From positions 248,001 through 312,000 of the forward strand of contig NZ_FZOF01000003.1 of the NCBI RefSeq assembly GCF_900188405.1: a stretch of 64,000 nt of DNA, read 5' to 3'. The position numbers and the translations under genes were made by a program. The notes under the pieces were generated by a model that was not told where the DNA came from, made no database searches, and saw nothing but the letters and a program-made list of their open reading frames with translations. Positions 41,590-54,744 of this stretch are shown here, piece by piece (the first letter of the stretch is position 1; each line of letters begins with the position of its first letter). Source of the stretch: Actinacidiphila glaucinigra. Lineage in GTDB: Bacteria; Actinomycetota; Actinomycetes; Streptomycetales; Streptomycetaceae.

Positions 41590-42222
41590 CTACTCGGGCC
41601 GCAGGGCGGCCAATTGCTGCTCGAACGGAACGACCGTATCCACCGCGGTCACGGTGGCCGACGGCCGTGTCACCAGGAGCGCCGCCAGCTCGCCCGCGGC
41701 GCGGGCGACACGGGTCGGCAGGGTGTCGGTGAGCGCGTCGCCGCTGCCGCCCCAGTCCTCCGACGCCGCGTACACGGCGGTCGGGACGACCACGGCCCGC
41801 AGGAAGGCGAAGAGCGGCCGCAGGGCGTGCTCCAGCGCCAGCGAGTGCCGGGCGGTGCCGCCGGTGGCGGCGATGAGCACGGGCTTGCCGGACAGCGCGT
41901 CGTTGTCGATGACGTCGAAGAAGGACTTGAACAGCCCGCTGTACGAGGCCGAGAAGACCGGCGTCACCGCGATCAGGCCGTCTGCCCCCGTCACGGCCGC
42001 GACGGCCTCCGCCAGGGCGCGGCCGGGGAAGCCGGTGACCATGTTGTTGGCGATGTCCACGGCCAGGTCGCGCAGTTCGACCACGCGGACGTCGACCGTA
42101 CGGCCGCCGTCCGCGACGGCCCGCCGTACGGCCTCGGCGAGACGGTCGCCGAGCAGCCGCGTGGACGACGGCGTGCTCAGGCCCGCCGAGACGACCACGA
42201 GCTTCAGGGGCGCGGCGGTCAC
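41590..42222 (-). CDS. NAD(P)H-dependent FMN reductase
   Basis: The 210-residue flavodoxin-fold protein shows the FMN loop 'VVSAGLSTPSSTRLLGDRL' and 'VTPVFSASYSGLFKSFFDVI' of the SsuE/CE1759 family. Its GTG overlaps the stop of the monooxygenase gene in GTGA. It most likely supplies reduced FMN to that monooxygenase as a two-component system. Confidence 0.9.
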   Translation of the reverse strand: MTAAPLKLVVVSAGLSTPSSTRLLGDRLAEAVRRAVADGGRTVDVRVVELRDLAVDIANNMVTGFPGRALAEAVAAVTGADGLIAVTPVFSASYSGLFKSFFDVIDNDALSGKPVLIAATGGTARHSLALEHALRPLFAFLRAVVVPTAVYAASEDWGGSGDALTDTLPTRVARAAGELAALLVTRPSATVTAVDTVVPFEQQLAALRPE

Positions 42223-43331
42223 TTCGCGGCCTCCTTCTCCTTGCCCTCCAGGGCCCGCGCGTCACGGCGCGCGACCAGCGAGGCGTGCGTCGGGGCCTCC
42301 GGCACGTCCGCGGGACGGCCCTTGGCGAACTCCTCCCGCAGCACCGGCACGACCTCCTCGCCGAGCAGGTCGAGCTGCTCCAGCACGGTCTTCAGCGGCA
42401 GTCCCGCGTGGTCCATCAGGAACAGCTGGCGCTGGTAGTCGCCGGCGTACTCGCGGAAGGCCAGCGTCTTCTCGATGACCTGCTGCGGCGAGCCGACGGT
42501 CAGCGGGGTCTGCTCGGTGAAGTCCTCCATGGACGGGCCGTGCCCGTACACCGGCGCGTTGTCGAAGTACGGCCGGAACTCGCGGACGGCGTCCTGCGAG
42601 TTCTTCCGCATGAACACCTGGCCGCCCAGGCCGACGATGGCCTGCTCGGGGGTGCCGTGGCCGTAGTGCGCGTAGCGCGTGCGGTACAGCTCGACCATCC
42701 GCTTGGTGTGGTCGGCCGGCCAGAAGATGTTGTTGTGGAAGAAGCCGTCACCGTAGTACGCGGCCTGCTCGGCGATCTCCGGCGAGCGGATGGAGCCGTG
42801 CCACACGAAGGGCGGCACGTCGTCCAGCGGCCGGGGCGTCGAGGTGAAGCCCTGCAGCGGGCTGCGGAAGCGGCCGGACCAGTCGACGACGTCCTCACGC
42901 CACAGCCGGTGCAGCAGCGCGTAGTTCTCGATCGCCAGCGGGATGCCCTGCCGGATGTCCTGCCCGAACCAGGGGTAGACCGGTCCGGTGTTGCCGCGGC
43001 CCATCATCACGTCGACGCGGCCGCCGGCCAGGTGCTGCAGCATCGCGAAGTCCTCGGCGATCTTCACCGGGTCGTTCGTGGTGATCAGCGTCGTCGATGT
43101 GGAGAGGACCAGCCTCTCCGTGCGGGCGGCTATCCAGCCGAGCATGGTCGTCGGGGACGAGGGCACGAACGGCGGGTTGTGGTGCTCGCCGGTCGCGAAG
43201 ACGTCCAGCCCCACCTCCTCGGCCTTGAGCGCGATCGCCGTCATGGCCTTGATCCGCTCGTGCTCGGTCGGCGTCCTGCCGGTCGTGGGGTCCATGGTCA
43301 CGTCACCCACGGTGAAGATCCCGAACTGCAC
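42219..43331 (-). CDS. LLM-class FMN-dependent monooxygenase
   Basis: The 370-residue enzyme is a bacterial luciferase-family protein: 'GIFTVGDVTMDPTTGRTP', 'EVGLDVFATGEHHNPPF' and 'VDVMMGRGNTGPVYPWF' are family blocks (CE1758/LLM type). The GTG at 43331 is preferred because AGGAGG lies nine bases upstream; a GTG at 43340 would sit directly against it. With the FMN reductase it should form a two-component oxygenase. A TTGAATACTCAA palindrome about 37 bp upstream is a likely operator. Confidence 0.9.
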   Translation of the reverse strand: MQFGIFTVGDVTMDPTTGRTPTEHERIKAMTAIALKAEEVGLDVFATGEHHNPPFVPSSPTTMLGWIAARTERLVLSTSTTLITTNDPVKIAEDFAMLQHLAGGRVDVMMGRGNTGPVYPWFGQDIRQGIPLAIENYALLHRLWREDVVDWSGRFRSPLQGFTSTPRPLDDVPPFVWHGSIRSPEIAEQAAYYGDGFFHNNIFWPADHTKRMVELYRTRYAHYGHGTPEQAIVGLGGQVFMRKNSQDAVREFRPYFDNAPVYGHGPSMEDFTEQTPLTVGSPQQVIEKTLAFREYAGDYQRQLFLMDHAGLPLKTVLEQLDLLGEEVVPVLREEFAKGRPADVPEAPTHASLVARRDARALEGKEKEAAK

Positions 43332-43367
43332 CGGCTTCACCCTCCTCCGTCGTCTCACCAATATTCG

Positions 43368-43379
43368 TTGAGTATTCAA
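43368..43379. promoter_or_regulatory. TTGAGTATTCAA palindrome upstream of the LLM operon
   Basis: A perfect TTGA-N4-TCAA palindrome with a further TTGAA half-site 10 bp away (TTTTCAACC at 43386-43394). The flanking ATCCGGTTG…GGTTGAAT string is shared with the site before the pirin gene, so one regulator, perhaps of the MarR type, may control both operons. Confidence 0.55.
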
Positions 43380-43998: not shown

Positions 43999-45246
43999 AT
44001 GAGCCACGTGATGCTGCCCCCGAAGCCCACCACCCTTGACGCACGTTCCGCGGCGGGCCTCGTCCGGCAGTGGCGCAGGGCCGTGGAGCCGGAGGCGCTC
44101 GCCGCGGCGTACGACGCGCTGGCCGCGGCGGGGCCGCTGGTGCCGACGCCGTGGGGCGCGCTCCTGGTCACCGGGTACGAGGAGTGCCGGCAGGTGCTGA
44201 CGGGGCGCGAATGGCTCACCCTCGGGGCCCGGTGGCGCGACGCCCACCGCCCCGGGTGGCGGGAGAGCGCGAGCACGGTCGGGCTGTGCGAGACGCCGCT
44301 GCAGCAGGATCCGCCGGAGCACACCGCGCGCCGCCGCCCGCTCAACGCGGTGCTGGCCCCCCGGGTCGTGCGGGAGGCGGCGGAGCGGCTCGTGGAGCCG
44401 CTCACCGAGCGCCACGTCGGGGAGTTCGCCGCGACCGTGCGCCGCGACGGCGCCGCGGACGTCGTCGCCCGGGTCTGCCGGCCGCTGCCCACCGCGGTCC
44501 TGGCGGAGATGGCCGGGCTGCCGGAGTGGATCGACCGGGGGTGGCTCGCCGCCGAGAGTGCCGCCATGGTGCGGGTGGAGGAACTCGCCGCGCCGCCCAG
44601 CGTCGTACGGCGCGCGGACGCCGCCGCGCTGGCCCTGCTCGACGCGTACGACCGCGCGCTGGCCGAGCGGCTGCGGCACCCCGCGGGGGACCTGCTGTCA
44701 CGGTGGGCCGCGCAGGACCCGGCGGGGGCCCGCTACCTGCTGCTGACGCTGTTCTCCGCCGGCGTGCCCACCACGGCGGCGCTGCTGGCCGGGACGGCGC
44801 TGGCACTGACCGCCGACCCCGCGCTTGCCGAAAGGATCCGCCAGGAGCCGGGGTTCGCGGGACCGCTCACGGACGAGCTGCTGCGCTGGGACCCGCCGGG
44901 ACGGGTGGTGACCCGTGTGACGGACGCGGACACAGAACTGGGCGGCCGCCCGGTGCCCGCCGGGCGGGTCGTCCACGCGCTCATCGGCGCGGCGCACCGC
45001 GACCCGGAGCGCTTCGCCGCCCCGCACGTCTTCGACCCGGACCGGCCGGCGCAGCGGCTGCTCGCCTTCGGCGGCGGCCTGCACTACTGCCTCGGGTCCC
45101 ATCTGGCCCGCGCGCAGGCGCTCGCGTTCGCCCGTGCCTTCGCCCGCGAGCTGCCCGGCGCCCGGGCCGCCGCCCCGCCGGTGCGGCACGCCGGGCCGAG
45201 CATGGCCGACATCGCCCGGCTGACCATCCACTCGCCCCTCACCTAA
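43999..45246 (+). CDS. Cytochrome P450
   Basis: The 415-residue P450 has the heme-binding block 'FGGGLHYCLGSHLA' with Cys364, an I-helix stretch 'LLLTLFSAGVPTTAALL' in which the usual A-G-x-E/D-T is altered to A-G-V-P-T, and a K-helix 'DELLRWDPPGRVVTRV'. It is a soluble actinobacterial P450 that would need ferredoxin and reductase from elsewhere. It is the first gene of a tight five-gene operon with lipid-type enzymes; inferred role is hydroxylation or other oxidation of the lipid product or of a fatty acyl precursor. The ATG lacks a strong ribosome site. Confidence 0.92.
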   Translation: MSHVMLPPKPTTLDARSAAGLVRQWRRAVEPEALAAAYDALAAAGPLVPTPWGALLVTGYEECRQVLTGREWLTLGARWRDAHRPGWRESASTVGLCETPLQQDPPEHTARRRPLNAVLAPRVVREAAERLVEPLTERHVGEFAATVRRDGAADVVARVCRPLPTAVLAEMAGLPEWIDRGWLAAESAAMVRVEELAAPPSVVRRADAAALALLDAYDRALAERLRHPAGDLLSRWAAQDPAGARYLLLTLFSAGVPTTAALLAGTALALTADPALAERIRQEPGFAGPLTDELLRWDPPGRVVTRVTDADTELGGRPVPAGRVVHALIGAAHRDPERFAAPHVFDPDRPAQRLLAFGGGLHYCLGSHLARAQALAFARAFARELPGARAAAPPVRHAGPSMADIARLTIHSPLT

Positions 45247-45262
45247 GGGAGAACGAAGGCCA

Positions 45263-46504
45263 GTGACCGAAATCCAGGACGCCACGGACGCGTTCCGCAA
45301 GGACCTGTCGTCGTCGACCTTCGTGCGGGCCATGGTGGAGACGGGCGTCCGGCCCTTCTACCGCACCATGCACATGACGGGCGCCGGGGAGGCCGTCGTC
45401 GAGGGCCGGGACGTCGTCATGGCGGGCTGCAACGACTACCTGGGCCTGTCCACGGACCCCCGGGTGACGGCGGCCGCGGCCGAGGCGCTGACCCGCTACG
45501 GCGCGTCCTGCTCCGGTGCGCGCACCCTCAACGGCACCCTCCCCCTGCACGGCGAACTGGAGGGGCGGATCGCGGACTTCCTGGGCACCGAGGCGGCCGC
45601 CGTGGTCACCACCGGCTTCCAGGCGAACCTGGCGGTGGCCGCCATGATCGGCCGCGGCGACATCGTCTTCAGCGACATGTCCAACCACGCCTCGCTGGTC
45701 GACGGCATCCGGCTCGGCGCCGGGCGCCGCGTGCTGTACCCGCACTCGGACACCGCTCGGCTGGACACCCTCCTGGAGCAGGCCACGGCCGCGGAGCCGA
45801 CCGCCGGCAAGGTCCTCGTCACCGACGGGATGTTCTCCATGGACGGCGACCTGTGCCGGCTCCCCGCGCTGACGGAGCTCGCCGCCCGGCACGGCGCCCG
45901 CCTCGTCGTGGACGGCGCCCACGACATCGGGCTGCTCGGCCCGGGCGGGCGCGGGGTCGCGGAGCACTTCGGGCTCATGGACCGGGTCGATCTGTTCACC
46001 GGCACCCTGTCCAAGTGCTTCGGCTCCACCGGCGGGTTCCTCGCCGGGCCCGCGCACGTCGTCGACTACCTGCGCTACAGCGCCCGTTCCATCCTCTTCT
46101 CCGCGTCGATGCCGCCCGCCGCCCTCGCCGCCGGGATCGCCGCGCTCGGCATCGCGGCGGCCGAGCCCTGGCGGCGCCGGCGCGTGCTCGCCCTGGCGGA
46201 GGCACTGCGCGCGGGACTGCGCGCGCTCGGCTACGACACGGGGGACTCGGTCACCCCGGTCGTGCCCGTCCTCATCGGGGACGCCACCACGTGCGCGCTC
46301 ATGTGGCAGGCGCTGCTCGACGAGGGCGTGTTCACCAACGCGGTGGGGGCCCCCGCCGTCCCCGAGGGGCGGTGTGTGATCCGGGTGACGGTGCAGGCCA
46401 CCCACTCCGACGTCCACCTGGAGCGGATCCTGGACGCCTTCGCCGCCGCCGGCCGCCGGGTCGGCCTGGTCCCGGAGCTGCCCGCGCAGGCGGTGGCCCG
46501 GTGA
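45263..46504 (+). CDS. Serine palmitoyltransferase-like alpha-oxoamine synthase
   Basis: The 413-residue PLP enzyme has the alpha-oxoamine synthase fold with 'YGASCSGARTLNGTLPLH', 'TTGFQANLAVAAM', 'VDGAHDIGLLG' and the PLP lysine Lys251 in 'GTLSKCFGSTGGF'. The 'GTLSK…GGF' and 'LFSASMPPAALAAG' blocks are closer to serine palmitoyltransferase than to biotin synthase BioF or KBL. It would condense an amino acid, probably serine, with a long acyl thioester to give a 3-keto amino lipid. No biotin genes are near. GTG start with GGGAG upstream, 16 bases after the P450 stop; the stop overlaps the next start. Confidence 0.88.
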   Translation: MTEIQDATDAFRKDLSSSTFVRAMVETGVRPFYRTMHMTGAGEAVVEGRDVVMAGCNDYLGLSTDPRVTAAAAEALTRYGASCSGARTLNGTLPLHGELEGRIADFLGTEAAAVVTTGFQANLAVAAMIGRGDIVFSDMSNHASLVDGIRLGAGRRVLYPHSDTARLDTLLEQATAAEPTAGKVLVTDGMFSMDGDLCRLPALTELAARHGARLVVDGAHDIGLLGPGGRGVAEHFGLMDRVDLFTGTLSKCFGSTGGFLAGPAHVVDYLRYSARSILFSASMPPAALAAGIAALGIAAAEPWRRRRVLALAEALRAGLRALGYDTGDSVTPVVPVLIGDATTCALMWQALLDEGVFTNAVGAPAVPEGRCVIRVTVQATHSDVHLERILDAFAAAGRRVGLVPELPAQAVAR

Positions 46505-47649
46505 ACGCGGTCACCGTCACCCCCGTCGAGGACCGCGCCGCCACGACGGCCTTCGTCCGGCTGCCGTACGCGCTCCACCGCGACGACCCGTACTGGGTCG
46601 CGCCGCTGGAGCGGGAGATGCGCGCCTTCCTCGACCCGCGCCGCAACCCCTTCTTCGACACGGCCGAGGCGCGGCTCTTCCTCGCCCGCCGGGGGCGCCG
46701 GACCGTCGGCCGGATCGCGGCCGTCGCGGACCCCCGCTTCCAGGAGCGGCACGACTTCAGGTGCGGCCACTTCGGGCTCTTCGAGTGCGCCGACGACCTC
46801 GAGGCCGCCGGGGCCCTCTTCGACGCGGCGGCGGCGTGGCTCGCCGGGCGCGGGCTGACCCGGATGCTGGGCCCGCTCAGCTTCTCCGTCAACGACGAGT
46901 GCGGGGTGCTCGTGGACGGTTTCGACGGGCCGCCGAGCGTGGGCATCCCGTACAACCCGCCGTACTACGCGGACCTGCTGACCGGCTGCGGCTTCGGCAA
47001 GGCCAAGGACCTGCTGTCCTGGCTGGTGCCGATGCCCCCGGACGGGGAGCCGCCCGCCGCGATCGCCCGGGTCGCCGCGCGCACCCTGGCCGACCCCGCC
47101 GTGCGGGTGCGGCCGCTCGACCGGGACCGCTACGAGGACGACATGGCCGCCATCAAGGACATCTACAACGACGCCTGGGCCGAGAACTACGCCTCCGTCC
47201 CGCTGACCGACGCCGAGTTCCTGCACATGGCCGCGCAGCTGAAGTCGGTCGTCCACCCGGAGCTGGTGCGGATCGCCGAGGTGGACGGGGAGCCCGCCGC
47301 CTTCACCCTGTGGGTGCCCGACGTGAACCAGGCGCTGCGCGCCGCACGGGGCAGGCTGACCACCTGGGGACTGCCGATCGGCATGCTGCGGATCAGCCGG
47401 GCGATGGGGCGCATCACCCGCGTCAGGGGCGGTACGTCGGGCGTGCGCAAGGAGCACCGCAGCCGCGGGCTGGTCGCGGTGCTGCTCGCCGACGCGCAGC
47501 GCGCAGCGTTCCGGCTCGGCTACACCGAGACCGACCTGTCCTGGATCCTGGAGGACAACCGCGGCTCCAACCGGCACGCGCAGGCCATGGGCGGGGTGCA
47601 CTTCAGGACGCACCGGCTGTACGAGCGCGACGGCGGGGGCCTGCGGTGA
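46501..47649 (+). CDS. YghO-type GNAT N-acyltransferase, ceramide-synthase-like
   Basis: The 382-residue protein belongs to the long GNAT family typified by E. coli YghO: 'LPYALHRDDPYWVAPL', 'RRNPFFDTAEARLFLARR', 'GPLSFSVNDECGVLVDGF' and 'YNPPYYADLL' are its blocks in order. The bacterial ceramide synthase reported from Caulobacter is, to my knowledge, of this family. The gene overlaps both neighbours in GTGA junctions, between the oxoamine synthase and a reductase. Inferred role: N-acylation of the sphingoid-like base or of its keto form. An acyl-CoA or acyl-ACP donor is expected; no ACP gene is in the operon. Confidence 0.85.
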   Translation: MNAVTVTPVEDRAATTAFVRLPYALHRDDPYWVAPLEREMRAFLDPRRNPFFDTAEARLFLARRGRRTVGRIAAVADPRFQERHDFRCGHFGLFECADDLEAAGALFDAAAAWLAGRGLTRMLGPLSFSVNDECGVLVDGFDGPPSVGIPYNPPYYADLLTGCGFGKAKDLLSWLVPMPPDGEPPAAIARVAARTLADPAVRVRPLDRDRYEDDMAAIKDIYNDAWAENYASVPLTDAEFLHMAAQLKSVVHPELVRIAEVDGEPAAFTLWVPDVNQALRAARGRLTTWGLPIGMLRISRAMGRITRVRGGTSGVRKEHRSRGLVAVLLADAQRAAFRLGYTETDLSWILEDNRGSNRHAQAMGGVHFRTHRLYERDGGGLR

Positions 47650-48557
47650 GGTACCTCGTGACCGGCGCCACCGGCTTCGTCGGCGGCCACCTCGTACGCC
47701 ATCTCACCGCCCGCGGCCACGAGGTGACCGCGCTGGTGCGCGGCGGCCGCGACGTGCCCGGCGCCCGCAGCGTCCCCGGCGACCTCGTCACCGGCGCCGG
47801 GCTGGCCGCCGCGCTGCGGGGCGTGGACCGGGTCGTCCACCTGGCGGGGGTCACCAAGGCCGGCGACCCGCGGGTCTACGCGGCCGTCAACGCCGCCGGG
47901 ACGCGGCGGCTGTGCGAGGCGGCCGCGGCGCTCGCCGTGCCGCCCCGCCTGGTGTACTGCTCGTCGCTGGCCGCCTCCGGCCCCGGGCGGCGACGCCACG
48001 AGGACGCTCCGCCGGAGCCGGTCTCCGCGTACGGGCGCAGCAAGCTCGGCGGCGAGTGGGCGGTGCGGGACGCCGCGGACCGGCTGCCGGCGGTCGTGGT
48101 CCGGCCGCCGATCGTGTACGGCCCCGGCGACCCGGAGTTCCTGCCGCGGCTGGTGGCGGCGGTGCGCACGGGCCTGCTGCCCGCCGTCGGCCGGCCCGGG
48201 CCGCGGCACTACTCGCTGATCCACGTCGACGACCTGTGCCGGGCGCTGATCACCGCCGCCGATCCCGGCGCCACGGAGGTCGGCACCTACCACGTGTGCG
48301 ACGGCACCGAGCACCGCTGGGAGGACATCGGCGCCGCCGTCGCGGCCGCGCTCGGCCGCCGCGCGCCGCGGGTGGTCCACATCCCCGGGCCGCTGGCGAT
48401 GGCCGCGGCGCGGCTGTTCGGCCGCGCGTCGGCGCTCAACCCCGACAAGGTCGCCGAGGCGCTGCATCCCGCGTGGACCTGCGCCCCCGGCGGCCGGCTC
48501 CCGTACCGCCCCGCCGTCACGCTCCCCGAGGGGCTGCGCGGCGCCCTGAACCGCTGA
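47646..48557 (+). CDS. NAD(P)-dependent epimerase/reductase, CerR-like
   Basis: The 303-residue extended short-chain dehydrogenase has the Rossmann motif 'VTGATGFVGGHLV' and the catalytic pair in 'YGRSK' (Tyr129, Lys133). In bacterial sphingolipid loci an enzyme of this kind (CerR) reduces the 3-keto group left by serine palmitoyltransferase. A sugar epimerase role is less likely because no sugar genes are near. It is translationally coupled to the acyltransferase upstream (GTGA overlap) and lies 28 bp before the last gene. Confidence 0.86.
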   Translation: MRYLVTGATGFVGGHLVRHLTARGHEVTALVRGGRDVPGARSVPGDLVTGAGLAAALRGVDRVVHLAGVTKAGDPRVYAAVNAAGTRRLCEAAAALAVPPRLVYCSSLAASGPGRRRHEDAPPEPVSAYGRSKLGGEWAVRDAADRLPAVVVRPPIVYGPGDPEFLPRLVAAVRTGLLPAVGRPGPRHYSLIHVDDLCRALITAADPGATEVGTYHVCDGTEHRWEDIGAAVAAALGRRAPRVVHIPGPLAMAAARLFGRASALNPDKVAEALHPAWTCAPGGRLPYRPAVTLPEGLRGALNR

Positions 48558-48585
48558 CCGCCCCGCGAGGAAGGGGGAGCACCCC

Positions 48586-49818
48586 GTGCGCCGCCGACTG
48601 TCCCCGTACGAACGCGTCATCTGGGCCGCCGGTGAGCGGCTCCCGGTCAACATCGCCGCCGTGGCCCGCGTCGAGGGCCGCACCACGCCCGGGCGGGTCC
48701 GCGCGGCCGTGGCCGCCGTCCGGCGCCGCCACCCCCTGCTCGGCGTCCGCGTCGCCGACCCCGGGTGGTGGCAGGGACGGCTGACCACGGCCGGGGTGCC
48801 GGACCCGGGGGTGCGGGTGGTCAGGGACGCCGGCGCGGGCGCCTGGTCCCGCGTGGTGGAGGAGGAGCTCCCGCGGCCCTTCGACACCCGCAGCGGTCCC
48901 CTCGCCCGCTTCGTGCTCGTCGACGCGGGCGAGGCCTTCGACCTCGTCACCGTCTACCACCACCTGGTCGCCGACGCCGTCTCCGCGGGCGTCGTCCTGC
49001 GCGACCTGCTGACCCACCTGGGCGGGCCGGACCCGGCGGAGGCTCCGCCGCCCGGCTCGGGACCGGTGCCGGTGCTGGCGGCGCCCGCGGACGAGCTGAT
49101 CCCGGGCCCGCGCGCCCGCCCCGGGGACCTGCTGAGGACCGCCCGCGCCCTGGGCGGGCCCGTACGGCCGCCGTACCCCCCGGACGGACGGCTCGCCTAT
49201 CGCGCGTGGTCGCTGGAGCGCGAGGATACGGAGCTGCTGCTCAAGCGGTGCCGGGCGCAGGGCGCGACGCTGCAGGGCGCCCTGTGCGCGGCCTTCGCAC
49301 GGGCCGCCGCGCCGGGCCGCCCGGCCCGGATCGCGGTCGCCGCGGACCTGCGCCGGGTGCTCGAACCGCCGCCCGGGGAGGCCATGGGCCTGTACGCGGC
49401 GAGCTTCGTCGTCCCCGTGGACGGCGCGGCAGACGACCTGTGGGCGGCCGCGCGCGAGGCCAGGACCGGGATCCACGCCCGGCTCACCCCGCAGGAGCTG
49501 CGGCCGCTCGTACGCGTCTTCCGGCTGACCTCGTTCCTCCCGCACCGCGCCGTCGGCGCCCTGCTGCGACGCGGCGAGTCGCGCGGCCCCCGGTTCGACG
49601 TGTCCGTGAGCAACACCCGCCTGGACCTCCCCGAGGCGTACGGGCCGCTGCGGCTGGCCGCCGTCCACGGCGCGGCGCACACCAGCCTGTCCGGGGCTCC
49701 GCTGGTGATCGTGGTGGGGCTGGGCGGGCGGCTGTTCCTCAGCGTGACGTCCACGGCGGGCGAGGAGGCGGAAGCGCTGTGCCGGCGGGCCATGGACCAT
49801 CTGCTGTCCGCCGAGTGA
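48586..49818 (+). CDS. PapA/condensation-type acyltransferase
   Basis: The 410-residue protein has the two-lobed condensation-domain fold. The active site is 'YHHLVADAVSAG' (His125, His126, Asp130), with Ala where Gly is usual in HHxxxDG. The 'DLRRVLEPPPGEAMGLYAAS' and 'FDVSVSNTRLDLP' blocks are typical of stand-alone members such as PapA, which transfer acyl groups to lipid hydroxyls. As last gene of the operon it probably acylates the amino-lipid product on a hydroxyl, perhaps one made by the P450. GGGGGAG lies before the GTG. Confidence 0.85.
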   Translation: MRRRLSPYERVIWAAGERLPVNIAAVARVEGRTTPGRVRAAVAAVRRRHPLLGVRVADPGWWQGRLTTAGVPDPGVRVVRDAGAGAWSRVVEEELPRPFDTRSGPLARFVLVDAGEAFDLVTVYHHLVADAVSAGVVLRDLLTHLGGPDPAEAPPPGSGPVPVLAAPADELIPGPRARPGDLLRTARALGGPVRPPYPPDGRLAYRAWSLEREDTELLLKRCRAQGATLQGALCAAFARAAAPGRPARIAVAADLRRVLEPPPGEAMGLYAASFVVPVDGAADDLWAAAREARTGIHARLTPQELRPLVRVFRLTSFLPHRAVGALLRRGESRGPRFDVSVSNTRLDLPEAYGPLRLAAVHGAAHTSLSGAPLVIVVGLGGRLFLSVTSTAGEEAEALCRRAMDHLLSAE

Positions 49819-51060: not shown

Positions 51061-54000
51061 ATGACGGACGCGCGGGCGGCCGTGGACCGCATGCTGACGC
51101 GCTTCGGGCTGGCGGAGACGCCGGGCACCGCGCGCCTGGTCGACGGTGCCGGCACGACGCCCGGAAGCCTGCTCGAGGCGGCGGAGGGCCTGCTGCGGGA
51201 ATCGTGGCGGGGCGGGGACGGACGGGCCCCGGCCGCCGCTGCGCTCGCGCTGATGGTGCTGGGCCTGGACACGGCGGCGCGCGACGATCCGTCGCGTGCC
51301 CGGCTCGTCCTGCATCTGCAGCTGGCCGACCGCACCCTCGCGCAGGTGCACGGCGACTTCCGTACCGCCCCCGAGGTCCGCCATCACCTGGGGGCGCAGA
51401 CCCAGCACCGCCCGCCCGACGACCTCGTGGCGGTCGCGGCCGTCTACCCGTCGGGCCCCGCGCAGCAGCCGTTCCGGCCGGCGGACCCCCTGGAGGGCAG
51501 GGTGGCGGAGCTGCTGGCCACGCTGCCCCCGGAGGATCTGAGCCGCCCCGGGCTGCTGGCCCGGCTCGCGCACTCCGCGCTCGTCCGGTACGAGTGCGGG
51601 GCCACGGAGGAGTTGCCGGCGCTGTGGGCGCGCGCCCGGGAGGCCTTCGAGGCGGTCACCCCCGGGCACGTCGACGCCCCGGACGCGGGCCGGGTGGCGG
51701 TGCTCGCCGGGGTCGCCCGGGTCCGGGCGCATCCGCGGGACCGGGAGGCGGTGGACGTCGCCGTGCGGGGCGGTCGGCTGGCGCTGGCCGCGGCGAGCGG
51801 GCGCACCATGGGCGGGCTCCGGGACCGGCACGAGATGCGCAGCGTCCACTTCGCGCTGGCGGTGGCACTGATGTGCACGCTGCCCTGGGCACCGGCCCGC
51901 GCGACGATCGACGAGGCGATGGGTCACCTGGAGGCGTACCGGGCCGAGGGCCTGCCGGACGAGGACGGCGCCTACGAGGTGAACGCGGCCTCGCTGCTGG
52001 CCGCCCGCGCGGTCGTCACCTGGGAGGTCGCCGACGCCGCCGAGGCGGAGCGGATGCTGCGCGCGCTCCTGGAGCGGCTGCCGCCGGGCCATCCGCTGCT
52101 GCCGCACATCGCGGAGAAGGCCGCCGCGGTGGGCGAACTCCGCGGCAGGATGCGGCTCCTGCCGCGGGCCCTGGGCTCGGTGGCGACCCGGTTCCTGCCG
52201 ATGATGGTGCGGTTCGCGCCCGCGCTGCCACCGGTGCGGTTGCGGACGCCCCTGCCACGGGGCGGCGTCCTGACCGGCCCCGCTCCCCCACCGGAACCGG
52301 TGCCGGAACCTGTGCCCGAAGCGGTGCCGGAACCGGAAGCGGCGCCCGGGCCGGAACCGGGGGACGACGCGGGCGACGACCTCCTCACGCGCTTCGCCTC
52401 GGCCTTCCCCGTCCCTCCCGACCTGCAGCCCCTGCTGCGGGCCGTGGCCAAGGGCCCCGGCACACCCCAGGGCATCGATCCCGCCTTCCTCGCCGACGCC
52501 GAGCGGCGGTTGCGCGGGGCACTGGAGCGGACGGAGGCCGGGAGCCCCGAACGGGCGCAGACGGCGGGCCTGTTGATGGCGCTCATCGCGATGCGCTACA
52601 CGGCCGACCAGGACGCGGCCGTGATCGAGGAGGCGGCGGCGCTCGGCGACCGCGTCCTGGCCGAACTCCCCCACGGCTCCCCGGAACACGCCCGCCTGCT
52701 CCTCACCTCGGCGCCGTGGCAGCACATGCGGGCGGTGCTCGCCATGGACGCCGCCGCACTGCGCGCCTGCTGCGCGGAACTGCGGGCGGCGCTCGACCTG
52801 CTGCCCGACGACGCGCCGGAACGCGCCGCGGGCGAGGCCGAGTACGCCAACGCGCTCACCAACCTCGCCGGGCTCACCCAGGACCCCGTCCTGTCCGCCG
52901 AGGCCCGCCGCAGGATCGCCGACGCCTCGCGGCGCGTGGAGCGGACCCCGGGCCTGACGGACCTGCTGGGCGGGATGGTGGCCTCGTACGGCCACTGGGC
53001 GGACTACACCGACGCCACGGTCCGCGGGGACGGGCGGGCGGCGCGGGCCGCCGAGGTCGCGTTCGCGGCGGAGCCCGGCGGCGAGATGCCCGCGCTGCGG
53101 TTCGAGGTGGCGCGCATCGCGATGGCCGACGCGCTGGAGCACCACGACTGGGCGGCCGCCGCCGACGCGGCGGCCCGGGCGCTGGAGACCCTGCCGTCGG
53201 TGGCCTCCCGCGCTCTGACCCGGGAGGACCGCCGGGCCTTCGTCGGCGGCGCGCTGCTCGGCCGCCGGTACGCCATGGCGCACCTGCGCACGGACGGCGG
53301 CGACCCGGCGGAGGCGGGCCGGCCCGACCCGCTGACGGGCACCAGCCTGGGCCGTACCGGCTGCGCCGCGGCGCTCGCCGCGGGGCGGCCAGCGCAGGCG
53401 CTGGCGCTGCTGGAGCAGGGCCGGGCGGTGCTGATGGGCCAGGACCTGGAGGCCCGCGCCGATCTGACCGCCCTGTCCGCGGCGCATCCCCTGCTGGCCC
53501 GGGAGTTCTCCGCGCTCGCGGGACGGCTGCGGCGGGCCGAGGCGGGCGAGGACTTCATGGAACGGCACGTCGCGGCCGCCGAGTGGGAGGCGCTGCTGAT
53601 GCGCGTCCGCGGTACCGCGGGTTTCGAGCGGTTCCTGATGCCGCCCACGGAGCGGGAGATGAGGGACGTGGCCGCACAGGGGCCGGTCGTCGCCGTCAAC
53701 GTGGACCGGCTGCGCTGCGACGCGGTCGTCGTCACCCGGGAGCGGATCTTCTCCGTGCCGCTGCGGGAACTGACGGAGGGACAGCTCGCCCTGCGCGCAC
53801 AGGAGTTCCTGGCGGCCGTGAGTCTGCCGCGGAACGCGCCCGAGGAGGAGCACGACCGCGCCCGCGAACTCGTGCTGGACACCCTCGCCTGGCTGTGGCG
53901 CACGGTGGCCGAGCCGGTGCTCACCGCCCTCGGCCTCACCCGCCCGCTCCCCGCGGACGCCCCCGCGTCGGCCGCGCCCCGGCTGTGGTGGTCGGCCTCG

Positions 54001-54744
54001 GGACCGCTGGCGTACCTGCCGCTGCACGCCGCCGGGCTGCAGCGCAAGCACCAACTGCCCGACGGGCGGAGCGTCCTGGACCGGGTGGCCTCCTCCTACA
54101 CCCCCACCCTGCGCGCCCTGCGGCACGCCCGGCAGGTCTCCTCCGGCCGCACCGGGGGACGGCTGCTCGCCGTGGGCCGCCCCACCGGAACGGCGGGCTC
54201 CGCGGGCGCCTCGGCCCGTGAGATCGCCGCGATCGCGGACGCGCTGGGCGGCGTCCGCGCCCTCGAGGGCGAGGCGGCCACACCCGAACGCGTCCTCGCG
54301 GCCCTGCGCACGGCGCGCTGGGTGCACTTCGCCTGCCACGGCGTCAGCGACCCGCGGGACCCGTCCGCCAGCCGCCTGCTCCTGCACGGCGGCCCGCTGA
54401 GCGCCGGGGACGTCTCCCGGCAGGAACTCCTCTACGCCGAACTGGCGGTGCTGCTGGCCTGCCACACCGCCCACACCGGGCAACTGCCCGACGAGGCGGT
54501 CCACCTCGCCTCGGCCTTCCAGACCGCCGGCTACCCGCAGGTCGTCGGCGCCCTCTGGGAGGCCGACGACGCGGTCTCCGCGCTCCTGGCCGCCCGCCTG
54601 TACGCCGCGCTCCGCGCCCCGGCGCCCGGTGCCGTCGCCCCCGCCGACGCGGGCCGCGCCCTCAACCACGTCGCCCGCGCCCTGCGCACCCGCTACGCCC
54701 GCTCCCCCGCGGTCTGGGCCCCCTTCGTCCACATCGGCCGCTGA
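51061..54744 (+). CDS. CHAT-domain (caspase-like) protein with helical repeats
   Basis: The 1227-residue protein has a long alpha-helical, TPR-like region (about 1-880) interrupted by a Pro/Glu linker 'PPPEPVPEPVPEAVPEPE' near 410-428, and a C-terminal CHAT protease domain (about 930-1225). The catalytic dyad is clear: His1093 in 'VHFACHGVSD' and Cys1134 in 'VLLACHTAHTG'. CHAT proteases act in bacterial conflict and cell-death systems, where helical repeats receive a signal and the protease cleaves a partner. No gasdermin, nuclease or obvious partner is adjacent; two unknown genes lie convergent to it. A TATCCT -10 box is at 51020. Confidence 0.9.
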   Translation: MTDARAAVDRMLTRFGLAETPGTARLVDGAGTTPGSLLEAAEGLLRESWRGGDGRAPAAAALALMVLGLDTAARDDPSRARLVLHLQLADRTLAQVHGDFRTAPEVRHHLGAQTQHRPPDDLVAVAAVYPSGPAQQPFRPADPLEGRVAELLATLPPEDLSRPGLLARLAHSALVRYECGATEELPALWARAREAFEAVTPGHVDAPDAGRVAVLAGVARVRAHPRDREAVDVAVRGGRLALAAASGRTMGGLRDRHEMRSVHFALAVALMCTLPWAPARATIDEAMGHLEAYRAEGLPDEDGAYEVNAASLLAARAVVTWEVADAAEAERMLRALLERLPPGHPLLPHIAEKAAAVGELRGRMRLLPRALGSVATRFLPMMVRFAPALPPVRLRTPLPRGGVLTGPAPPPEPVPEPVPEAVPEPEAAPGPEPGDDAGDDLLTRFASAFPVPPDLQPLLRAVAKGPGTPQGIDPAFLADAERRLRGALERTEAGSPERAQTAGLLMALIAMRYTADQDAAVIEEAAALGDRVLAELPHGSPEHARLLLTSAPWQHMRAVLAMDAAALRACCAELRAALDLLPDDAPERAAGEAEYANALTNLAGLTQDPVLSAEARRRIADASRRVERTPGLTDLLGGMVASYGHWADYTDATVRGDGRAARAAEVAFAAEPGGEMPALRFEVARIAMADALEHHDWAAAADAAARALETLPSVASRALTREDRRAFVGGALLGRRYAMAHLRTDGGDPAEAGRPDPLTGTSLGRTGCAAALAAGRPAQALALLEQGRAVLMGQDLEARADLTALSAAHPLLAREFSALAGRLRRAEAGEDFMERHVAAAEWEALLMRVRGTAGFERFLMPPTEREMRDVAAQGPVVAVNVDRLRCDAVVVTRERIFSVPLRELTEGQLALRAQEFLAAVSLPRNAPEEEHDRARELVLDTLAWLWRTVAEPVLTALGLTRPLPADAPASAAPRLWWSASGPLAYLPLHAAGLQRKHQLPDGRSVLDRVASSYTPTLRALRHARQVSSGRTGGRLLAVGRPTGTAGSAGASAREIAAIADALGGVRALEGEAATPERVLAALRTARWVHFACHGVSDPRDPSASRLLLHGGPLSAGDVSRQELLYAELAVLLACHTAHTGQLPDEAVHLASAFQTAGYPQVVGALWEADDAVSALLAARLYAALRAPAPGAVAPADAGRALNHVARALRTRYARSPAVWAPFVHIGR

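Follow-up and report, generated by a model that had tools for sequence, protein, structure and literature searches.

A putative ceramide operon with two candidate tailoring genes in the streptomycete Actinacidiphila glaucinigra

Ceramide is a membrane lipid that has long been regarded as rare among Gram-positive bacteria; a streptomycete producer has reportedly been shown. Sphingolipid potential, judged from three genes, has been noted in several Gram-positive Actinobacteria (PMC12134224, citing Stankeviciute et al. 2022). A set of ceramide genes has been described from Caulobacter and rhodobacteria (aasR, cerR, acpR, spt, cerS). Escherichia coli yghO is given as corresponding to Caulobacter CC_1154, which is needed for dihydroceramide synthesis (PMC9386255). 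Here we describe a five-gene operon of 5.8 kb in the soil actinomycete Actinacidiphila glaucinigra (genome size 9.8 Mb), at positions 43999-49818 on the + strand of a stretch of 64,000 nt, which as a whole is called the window. Its genes encode a cytochrome P450, an alpha-oxoamine synthase (AOS) resembling serine palmitoyltransferase (SPT; gene Spt), a tandem-GNAT N-acyltransferase, an extended short-chain dehydrogenase/reductase (SDR) and a PapA-like acyltransferase (Table 1). From comparative sequence evidence we put the probability that this is a self-contained ceramide operon, carrying two tailoring genes, at roughly 0.7.

The gene content itself is straightforward. A preliminary description of the locus had reported five open reading frames (ORFs), their families, two GTGA overlaps and gaps of 16 bp between P450 and Spt and 28 bp between SDR and PapA-like gene, all of which agrees with the ORF list, the junction letters and the family scans. 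In Pfam, beside the P450 and SDR (Epimerase) matches of Table 1, the synthase is assigned to Aminotran_1_2 (1.1e-51) and the last gene to Condensation (1.1e-9), with PapA_C under its cut-off, while the GNAT passes as Acetyltransf_1 by the narrowest of margins (20.9 bits against a cut-off of 20.7). All three core genes are probably carried on one transcript.

The nature of the synthase is central to the ceramide reading. Its closest relatives in the PDB are the SPT sequences 8guh and 3a2b, at 297.8 bits each (1.3e-87), and the catalytic residues Lys251, Asp217, His220, His142 and R374 are present. In a tree of 64 rows, rooted by choice on KBL, it lies within an actinomycete cassette clade of 11 rows (100/99*), itself nested in a 53-row SPT-type set (100/95*) that includes nine proteobacterial and two Bacteroides-type SPT rows. 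The KBL rows (100/100*) and both BioF rows, grouping with which would in the preliminary description have counted against its reading, fall outside this set. Of six other streptomycete oxoamine synthases placed in the same tree, five are separate from the cassette clade, while the sixth, a plasmid gene at locus L127 (L and G numbers are our labels for loci and genomes) with no GNAT gene within the 5 kb examined, is its long-branch sister.

Residue 281 provides a second line of evidence, since Ala versus Lys at this position is given as the sole clear active-site difference between SPT and the cysteate transferase SulA (PMC9304779). Alanine is found there in the window, in 13 of 13 cassette synthases, in 11 of 11 SPT references and in all 25 other tabulated synthases of CerS-type loci, whereas the residue is Asn in four of four KBL, Thr in both BioF and Thr again in the own-genome paralogue L143. 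This distribution speaks against KBL, BioF and SulA without proving SPT. Taken with the tree it rules out a KBL or BioF identity; to treat Ala281 as diagnostic of SPT would be too strong, since seven of nine further rows outside the table also carry it (L038, L119, L123, L124, L126, L127 and L128).

Those seven rows are among several observations that count against an SPT assignment, as does L115, a CerS-type locus whose synthase has Ile at 281. The 53-row set also takes in AOS rows, mostly on long branches, with no GNAT gene in the stretch examined (L119, L123, L127, L128); with such uncharacterised enzymes in the set, and L127 sister to the cassette clade, placement alone is no proof of SPT activity. 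The branch uniting the cassette clade with the Bacteroides-type SPT clade reaches only 84/85. Finally, the synthase scores below all of the NCBIfam SPT equivalog cut-offs, the best being NF047600 (373.5 against 640 bits), followed by 324.6 against 500 and 275.2 against 670, while four of four SPT reference rows scanned exceed one of them. The same cut-offs are missed by the synthases of another actinomycete cassette (376.9 against 640) and of Rubrobacter (443.8 against 640), and the names of the models suggest that they are lineage-specific. Of the two approaches by which the preliminary description had proposed to check for an Spt, phylogeny places the enzyme on the SPT side and profile searches leave it below every equivalog threshold. 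On balance the assignment to the SPT type is well supported, and condensation of serine with an acyl group is the predicted reaction. One relative deserves separate mention: on a plasmid of Streptomyces sp. NBC_00648 (L128:2860-6366) an oxoamine synthase of the SPT-type set with Ala281 has SDR and P450 genes after it and no GNAT in that stretch, making it a candidate for a different amino-lipid.

Whether the substrate is indeed serine is a narrower question. The synthase might take alanine, glycine or another amino acid and so yield a 1-deoxyceramide or variant, in which the PapA-like enzyme would acylate the 3-hydroxyl or a hydroxyl made by the P450. Substrate choice is not readable from these sequences, and position 90 varies among cassette synthases (seven Asn, four Cys, two Gly) where all 11 SPT references have Asn; residue 281 reads as SPT, yet the position is no test of alanine or glycine. 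We consider such a substrate unlikely, albeit the most credible of the alternatives discussed here.

The second core enzyme, the GNAT, aligns with E. coli YghO in tblastn over residues 4-377, or 98% of the query, at 33% identity, and full-length identities to other bacterial proteins lie at 30-40% (Rubrobacter 36%, Roseomonas 39-40%, Sphingomonas 30%). The E. coli gene lies near genes for an SPT, an acyl carrier protein (ACP), an SDR, a fatty acyl-AMP ligase and LptFG, and SPT, GNAT and SDR are found together in the E. coli, Roseomonas and Rubrobacter loci. A GNAT scan of named genomes yielded 105 passing loci, of which 80 were kept. In the stretches examined around these 80, a synthase is present at 42 loci, an SDR at 38 and the two together at 32, with both within 3 kb in 26 cases. 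Relatives of the YghO-type ceramide synthase (CerS, also bCerS) and of the ceramide reductase (CerR) stay with the synthase across several phyla. The AlphaFold model of the GNAT, built from a 35-row alignment, is of high confidence (pLDDT 93.9, pTM 0.90) and shows a tandem GNAT fold, best matched by MAB_4324 (Z 25.0, root-mean-square deviation 3.3, 304 residues). N-myristoyltransferases also appear among the matches at Z of about 16, a sharing of fold that shows no function, and a sequence search of the PDB returned one weak match (0.082).

Two points temper this picture: no synthase was seen in 38 of the 80 GNAT loci, many of which are on short contigs, and the tree for the GNAT was made by a quick method, with a poor outgroup that did not fall on one side of a branch, so that it lends weak support only. 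A distant GNAT group at 26-29% identity, present in 7 of 61 relatives, has no such synthase or SDR in the 20 kb examined and was not counted as CerS. In the preliminary description a GNAT standing apart from ceramide synthases would have counted against the reading; what emerges is full-length kinship with YghO/CerS proteins, many of them encoded beside SPT genes. The identification of the GNAT as a YghO/bCerS relative is well supported by these comparisons, and N-acylation of a long-chain base is its predicted activity. With the synthase tree, this kinship also gives good support to the ceramide core that the preliminary description had proposed.

For the SDR, a quick tree places the window protein in a 51-row set with SDRs of Spt-CerS loci (SH-aLRT 90), and none of the eight other extended SDRs used from its own genome, out of 12 other matches, belongs to that set. 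Against this, the SDRs of GNAT loci L075 and L165 lie outside, among the genome's other SDRs. Assuming translation from the GTG at 47646, the Rossmann glycine motif starts at residue 7, which would leave no room for a signal peptide. This bears on the puzzle, raised in PMC11324152, of how a periplasmic CerR could function without NADH.

The operon as a whole behaves as a discrete unit. The five-gene neighbourhood to which the preliminary description had drawn attention recurs with its order kept in five of 61 genomes searched as relatives, own genome included. Orthologues of the GNAT, at 69-96% identity, occur in four of the 60 other relatives, and all four carry the five genes in order. Beyond the operon only G001 is collinear with the window, while L014, L015 and L016 have no predicted flanking ORF matching the window flanks at E<=1e-15. 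Because three of these four genomes have unrelated sequence on both flanks, the conserved unit spans exactly P450 to PapA-like gene, and a larger cluster is ruled out. No internal stops are seen, and dN/dS in three pairwise comparisons lies between 0.12 and 0.45 for all five genes: every one of them is under purifying selection. These ratios, along with recurrence of the order in five of 61 genomes, show that the arrangement did not arise by chance. The unit is rare. With own genome counted in each case, the GNAT is found at E<=1e-60 in 14 of 394 Streptomycetaceae genomes and in 3 of 394 genomes drawn from the class. A linear Streptomyces plasmid bears a four-gene version which lacks the P450.

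The roles of the two outer genes are less directly indicated. The P450 has its motifs intact (heme-Cys loop FGGGLHYCLG, ELLR for ExxR, AGVPTT for AGxxT), although its best structural relatives are mixed in function, a point against the proposed pathway. The PapA-like protein has a single whole-length solved relative, the phthiocerol/phthiodiolone dimycocerosyl transferase 8s6l (2.5e-25, residues 1-409), and carries the HHxxxD motif as HHLVAD at 125. Judging from enzyme class and neighbourhood, oxidation of the ceramide by the P450 and its O-acylation by the PapA-like enzyme are plausible, as the preliminary description had supposed.

A wider view comes from 24 mapped actinomycete loci, window included. 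A synthase is present in 23 of them (three diverged, with less than 310 bits, and one in two frames) and a CerR-type SDR of at least 250 bits in 20, and the order Spt-GNAT-SDR is seen in 17. Accessory genes are more variable. The PapA-like gene occurs in 11 loci and the P450 in six, not counting P450 matches of 128 and 37 bits at L165, which were excluded. In one of the 11, at L158:11769-13115, the PapA-like gene is broken into two frames, either by decay or by an error of sequencing, although the adjacent core is intact. Around the core of L160-L162, from Streptomycetaceae, there are instead a wax-ester-synthase/DGAT-type acyltransferase, a ketoacyl synthase and an ACP (by Pfam on L160 only), bringing the loci with an HHxxxD-superfamily acyltransferase beside the core to 14 of 24, 11 PapA-like and three wax-ester-synthase/DGAT-like; the two types would represent two separate recruitments. 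Outside the mapped actinomycetes, the 71 remaining loci of the scan show one unrelated P450 and no PapA-like gene.

A gene for an Scs7-like fatty acid hydroxylase, roughly 200 codons long, adjoins the core in four of the 24 loci (L040, L160, L161 and L163). For the Streptomyces altiplanensis protein (L040:12115-12732), the sole PDB relatives are the yeast ceramide very-long-chain fatty acid hydroxylase SCS7 (5.8e-27). No other independent hint that ceramide is the product of the core is as strong as this neighbour. A weaker Scs7-like match (28%, 3e-10) lies just before the GNAT in a gammaproteobacterial locus (L081:9357-9818). In the A. glaucinigra genome the one PF04116 match, at C75, is not close to the Scs7-like protein, and the idea of a hidden hydroxylase of this kind was dropped.

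In two related actinomycete loci a polyketide synthase (PKS) is encoded. In L166:11363-18961 (G742, same class), Spt-GNAT-SDR is directly followed by a PKS of 2532 aa with KS, AT, DH, MT, ER, KR and ACP domains, a candidate for a PKS-fed ceramide. In Kribbella antibiotica (L038:10001-19214) a CerS-type GNAT, 67% identical to the window's, precedes an ORF with AT and ACP domains and a PKS of 2221 aa to which an oxoamine synthase is fused, with no CerR-type SDR in the stretch.

P450s and condensation enzymes are typical of secondary-metabolite clusters. It could be argued, then, that the product is not a membrane ceramide but a small amino-lipid for secretion (an N-acyl amino ketone or amino alcohol), on which these two enzymes perform ordinary secondary-metabolite tailoring. 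The patchy spread among Streptomycetaceae is in keeping with this, as are the two PKS-linked loci, the Ala281 of the PKS-linked synthases L124 and L126, and PKS-made sphingolipids published as secondary metabolites (PMC12134224), which the L166 and Kribbella loci recall. Yet in several phyla the synthase has relatives of CerS (YghO-type) and CerR at its side, the Scs7-like hydroxylase lies next to the core in four of the 24 actinomycete loci, and the five-gene unit, flanked by other genes in three of the four further genomes, contains no PKS, exporter or regulator. A secreted product seems to us improbable, a little more so than an alternative amino acid substrate. Very improbable indeed is a sulfonolipid (capnine-like) pathway from cysteate since, despite the shared enzyme family and the presence of the cysteate acyltransferase 28eh among the PDB relatives (223.7 bits), the synthase has Ala281 rather than the Lys of SulA and scores higher with the SPT relatives.

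A ceramide operon also raises the question of the acyl donor. Two SPT subgroups have been distinguished, the rhodobacterial one having a dedicated ACP and acyl-ACP synthetase (PMC9386255, PMC11324152). No dedicated AcpR or acyl-ACP synthetase was found in the 64 kb window, the extent of the search. With an ACP model built from three loci (L032, L033 and L160), an ACP gene was found in eight of nine loci of the proteobacterial (rhodobacterial) SPT clade, two of the eight having supplied the model and the ninth being truncated where the locus begins. In the scanned actinomycete loci, L029 excluded, the model picks out an ACP only at three Streptomyces loci (L160-L162), some 4 kb away from the synthase, and at the Kribbella locus, as part of the PKS; acyl-AMP-ligase-like genes are present in L163 and L165. 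The preliminary description had anticipated an acyl-donor logic unlike that of Caulobacter, and indeed the window SPT falls with the Bacteroidetes-type branch, whose loci in this set mostly have no ACP gene by the synthase. The lack of an ACP gene at the operon fits that branch and suggests, by analogy, acyl-CoA as the donor. Some deltaproteobacteria, however, have such ACP and synthetase genes elsewhere in the genome (PMC9386255), a precedent that tells against a firm conclusion on the donor.

The pathway that we would propose begins with Spt joining L-serine (or a closely related amino acid, for instance alanine) to a long-chain acyl thioester, likeliest acyl-CoA, to give a 3-keto long-chain base. 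The tandem GNAT would N-acylate this base and the SDR would reduce the 3-keto group to give dihydroceramide, the order of these two steps being interchangeable. The P450 might then hydroxylate one chain, and the PapA-like enzyme might esterify C1, C3 or the new hydroxyl with an extra acyl group, giving a three-chain O-acylceramide. The sequences directly establish which genes are present, their order and coupling, that they are conserved together, their families and their intact catalytic residues. The first three steps are inferred by analogy with relatives; the last two, with the amino acid and the acyl donor, are proposed from enzyme class and neighbourhood only. The operon order Spt, CerS, CerR parallels the acylate-first order proposed for Caulobacter (PMC11087976), though the arrangement of the genes tells us nothing about the order of the reactions. 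More broadly, the loci may represent one mobile Spt-CerS-CerR core with exchangeable tailoring, over half of the mapped versions making three-chain O-acylceramides like those of animal skin, a generalization to which we would give clearly less than even odds. That such lipids might serve as a hydrophobic barrier, for example of aerial hyphae or spores, is pure speculation.

Table 1. Features of the putative ceramide operon, in window positions
Feature	Position	Strand	Evidence
Cytochrome P450, first gene of five	43999..45246	+	415 aa; PF00067 2.4e-18; motifs intact; in 6/24 actinomycete loci including window
SPT-like alpha-oxoamine synthase (Spt)	45263..46504	+	413 aa; PDB SPT 8guh/3a2b 1.3e-87; K251, A281; SPT side of tree
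Tandem-GNAT N-acyltransferase, YghO/bacterial ceramide synthase (CerS, bCerS) family	46501..47649	+	382 aa; YghO 33%; predicted tandem GNAT fold
Extended SDR, candidate ceramide reductase (CerR)	47646..48557	+	303 aa; PF01370 8.5e-38; clusters with SDRs of Spt-CerS loci
PapA5-like acyltransferase (condensation superfamily), candidate O-acyltransferase	48586..49818	+	410 aa; 8s6l 2.5e-25; HHLVAD; 11/24 actinomycete loci including window
GTGA stop/start overlap Spt/CerS, translational coupling	46501..46504	+	sequence; 4-bp overlap in 16/17 collinear loci
GTGA stop/start overlap CerS/CerR	47646..47649	+	sequence; 4-bp overlap in 14/17 collinear loci

Outside the conserved unit, a divergent luciferase-like monooxygenase and FMN reductase lie upstream (window 41593-43379, - strand), and a CHAT-domain protein of 1227 aa is encoded downstream (window 51061-54744). 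A CHAT gene is also near the cassette on the plasmid of Streptomyces sp. NBC_01001. Since L014-L016 lack the window's flanking genes, we take this proximity as coincidence, probably due to chance.

With this locus, Gram-positive ceramide synthesis becomes testable in a small 5.8 kb operon, for which the gene content predicts a lipid class, a hydroxylated or O-acylated ceramide. Equally, homologues of the eukaryotic ceramide hydroxylase Scs7 are indicated in bacterial ceramide loci.

The synthase, YghO-type N-acyltransferase and extended SDR of the Caulobacter/rhodobacterial set are homologous to the window's, the comparison for CerS being with YghO and its relatives. Compared with those genes, the window operon lacks acpR and aasR and adds the P450 and PapA-like genes. 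The arrangement differs too: cerS is said always to be in a separate operon (PMC11324152), a rule which does not hold here, as in the window, like the majority of collinear actinomycete loci, a cerS-type gene sits between Spt and CerR and is coupled to them. The Bacteroidetes-type SPTs 8guh and 3a2b are the closest solved structures and lie on the same broad side of the tree, and two such loci have no adjoining ACP gene, yet the window synthase falls below the cut-off of the corresponding NCBIfam model, NF047600. On a plasmid of Rubrobacter radiotolerans (L030:6704-12296), Spt-GNAT-SDR are in the same order as in the window, but in place of a PapA-like gene the trio has after it a gene of the LTA-synthase family, which would point to a phosphoglycerol head group, and there is no P450. 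The window's PapA-like protein matches PapA5-type acyltransferases over its whole length and in its HHxxxD motif, while its neighbours are ceramide genes. Among the literature matches listed, no title concerns a streptomycete ceramide operon extended by P450 and PapA-like genes or an exchange of tailoring genes, which is not to claim their absence from print. Gram-positive Actinobacteria have already been credited with the three-gene core; what is new is its decorated form, in which the tailoring genes are exchangeable.

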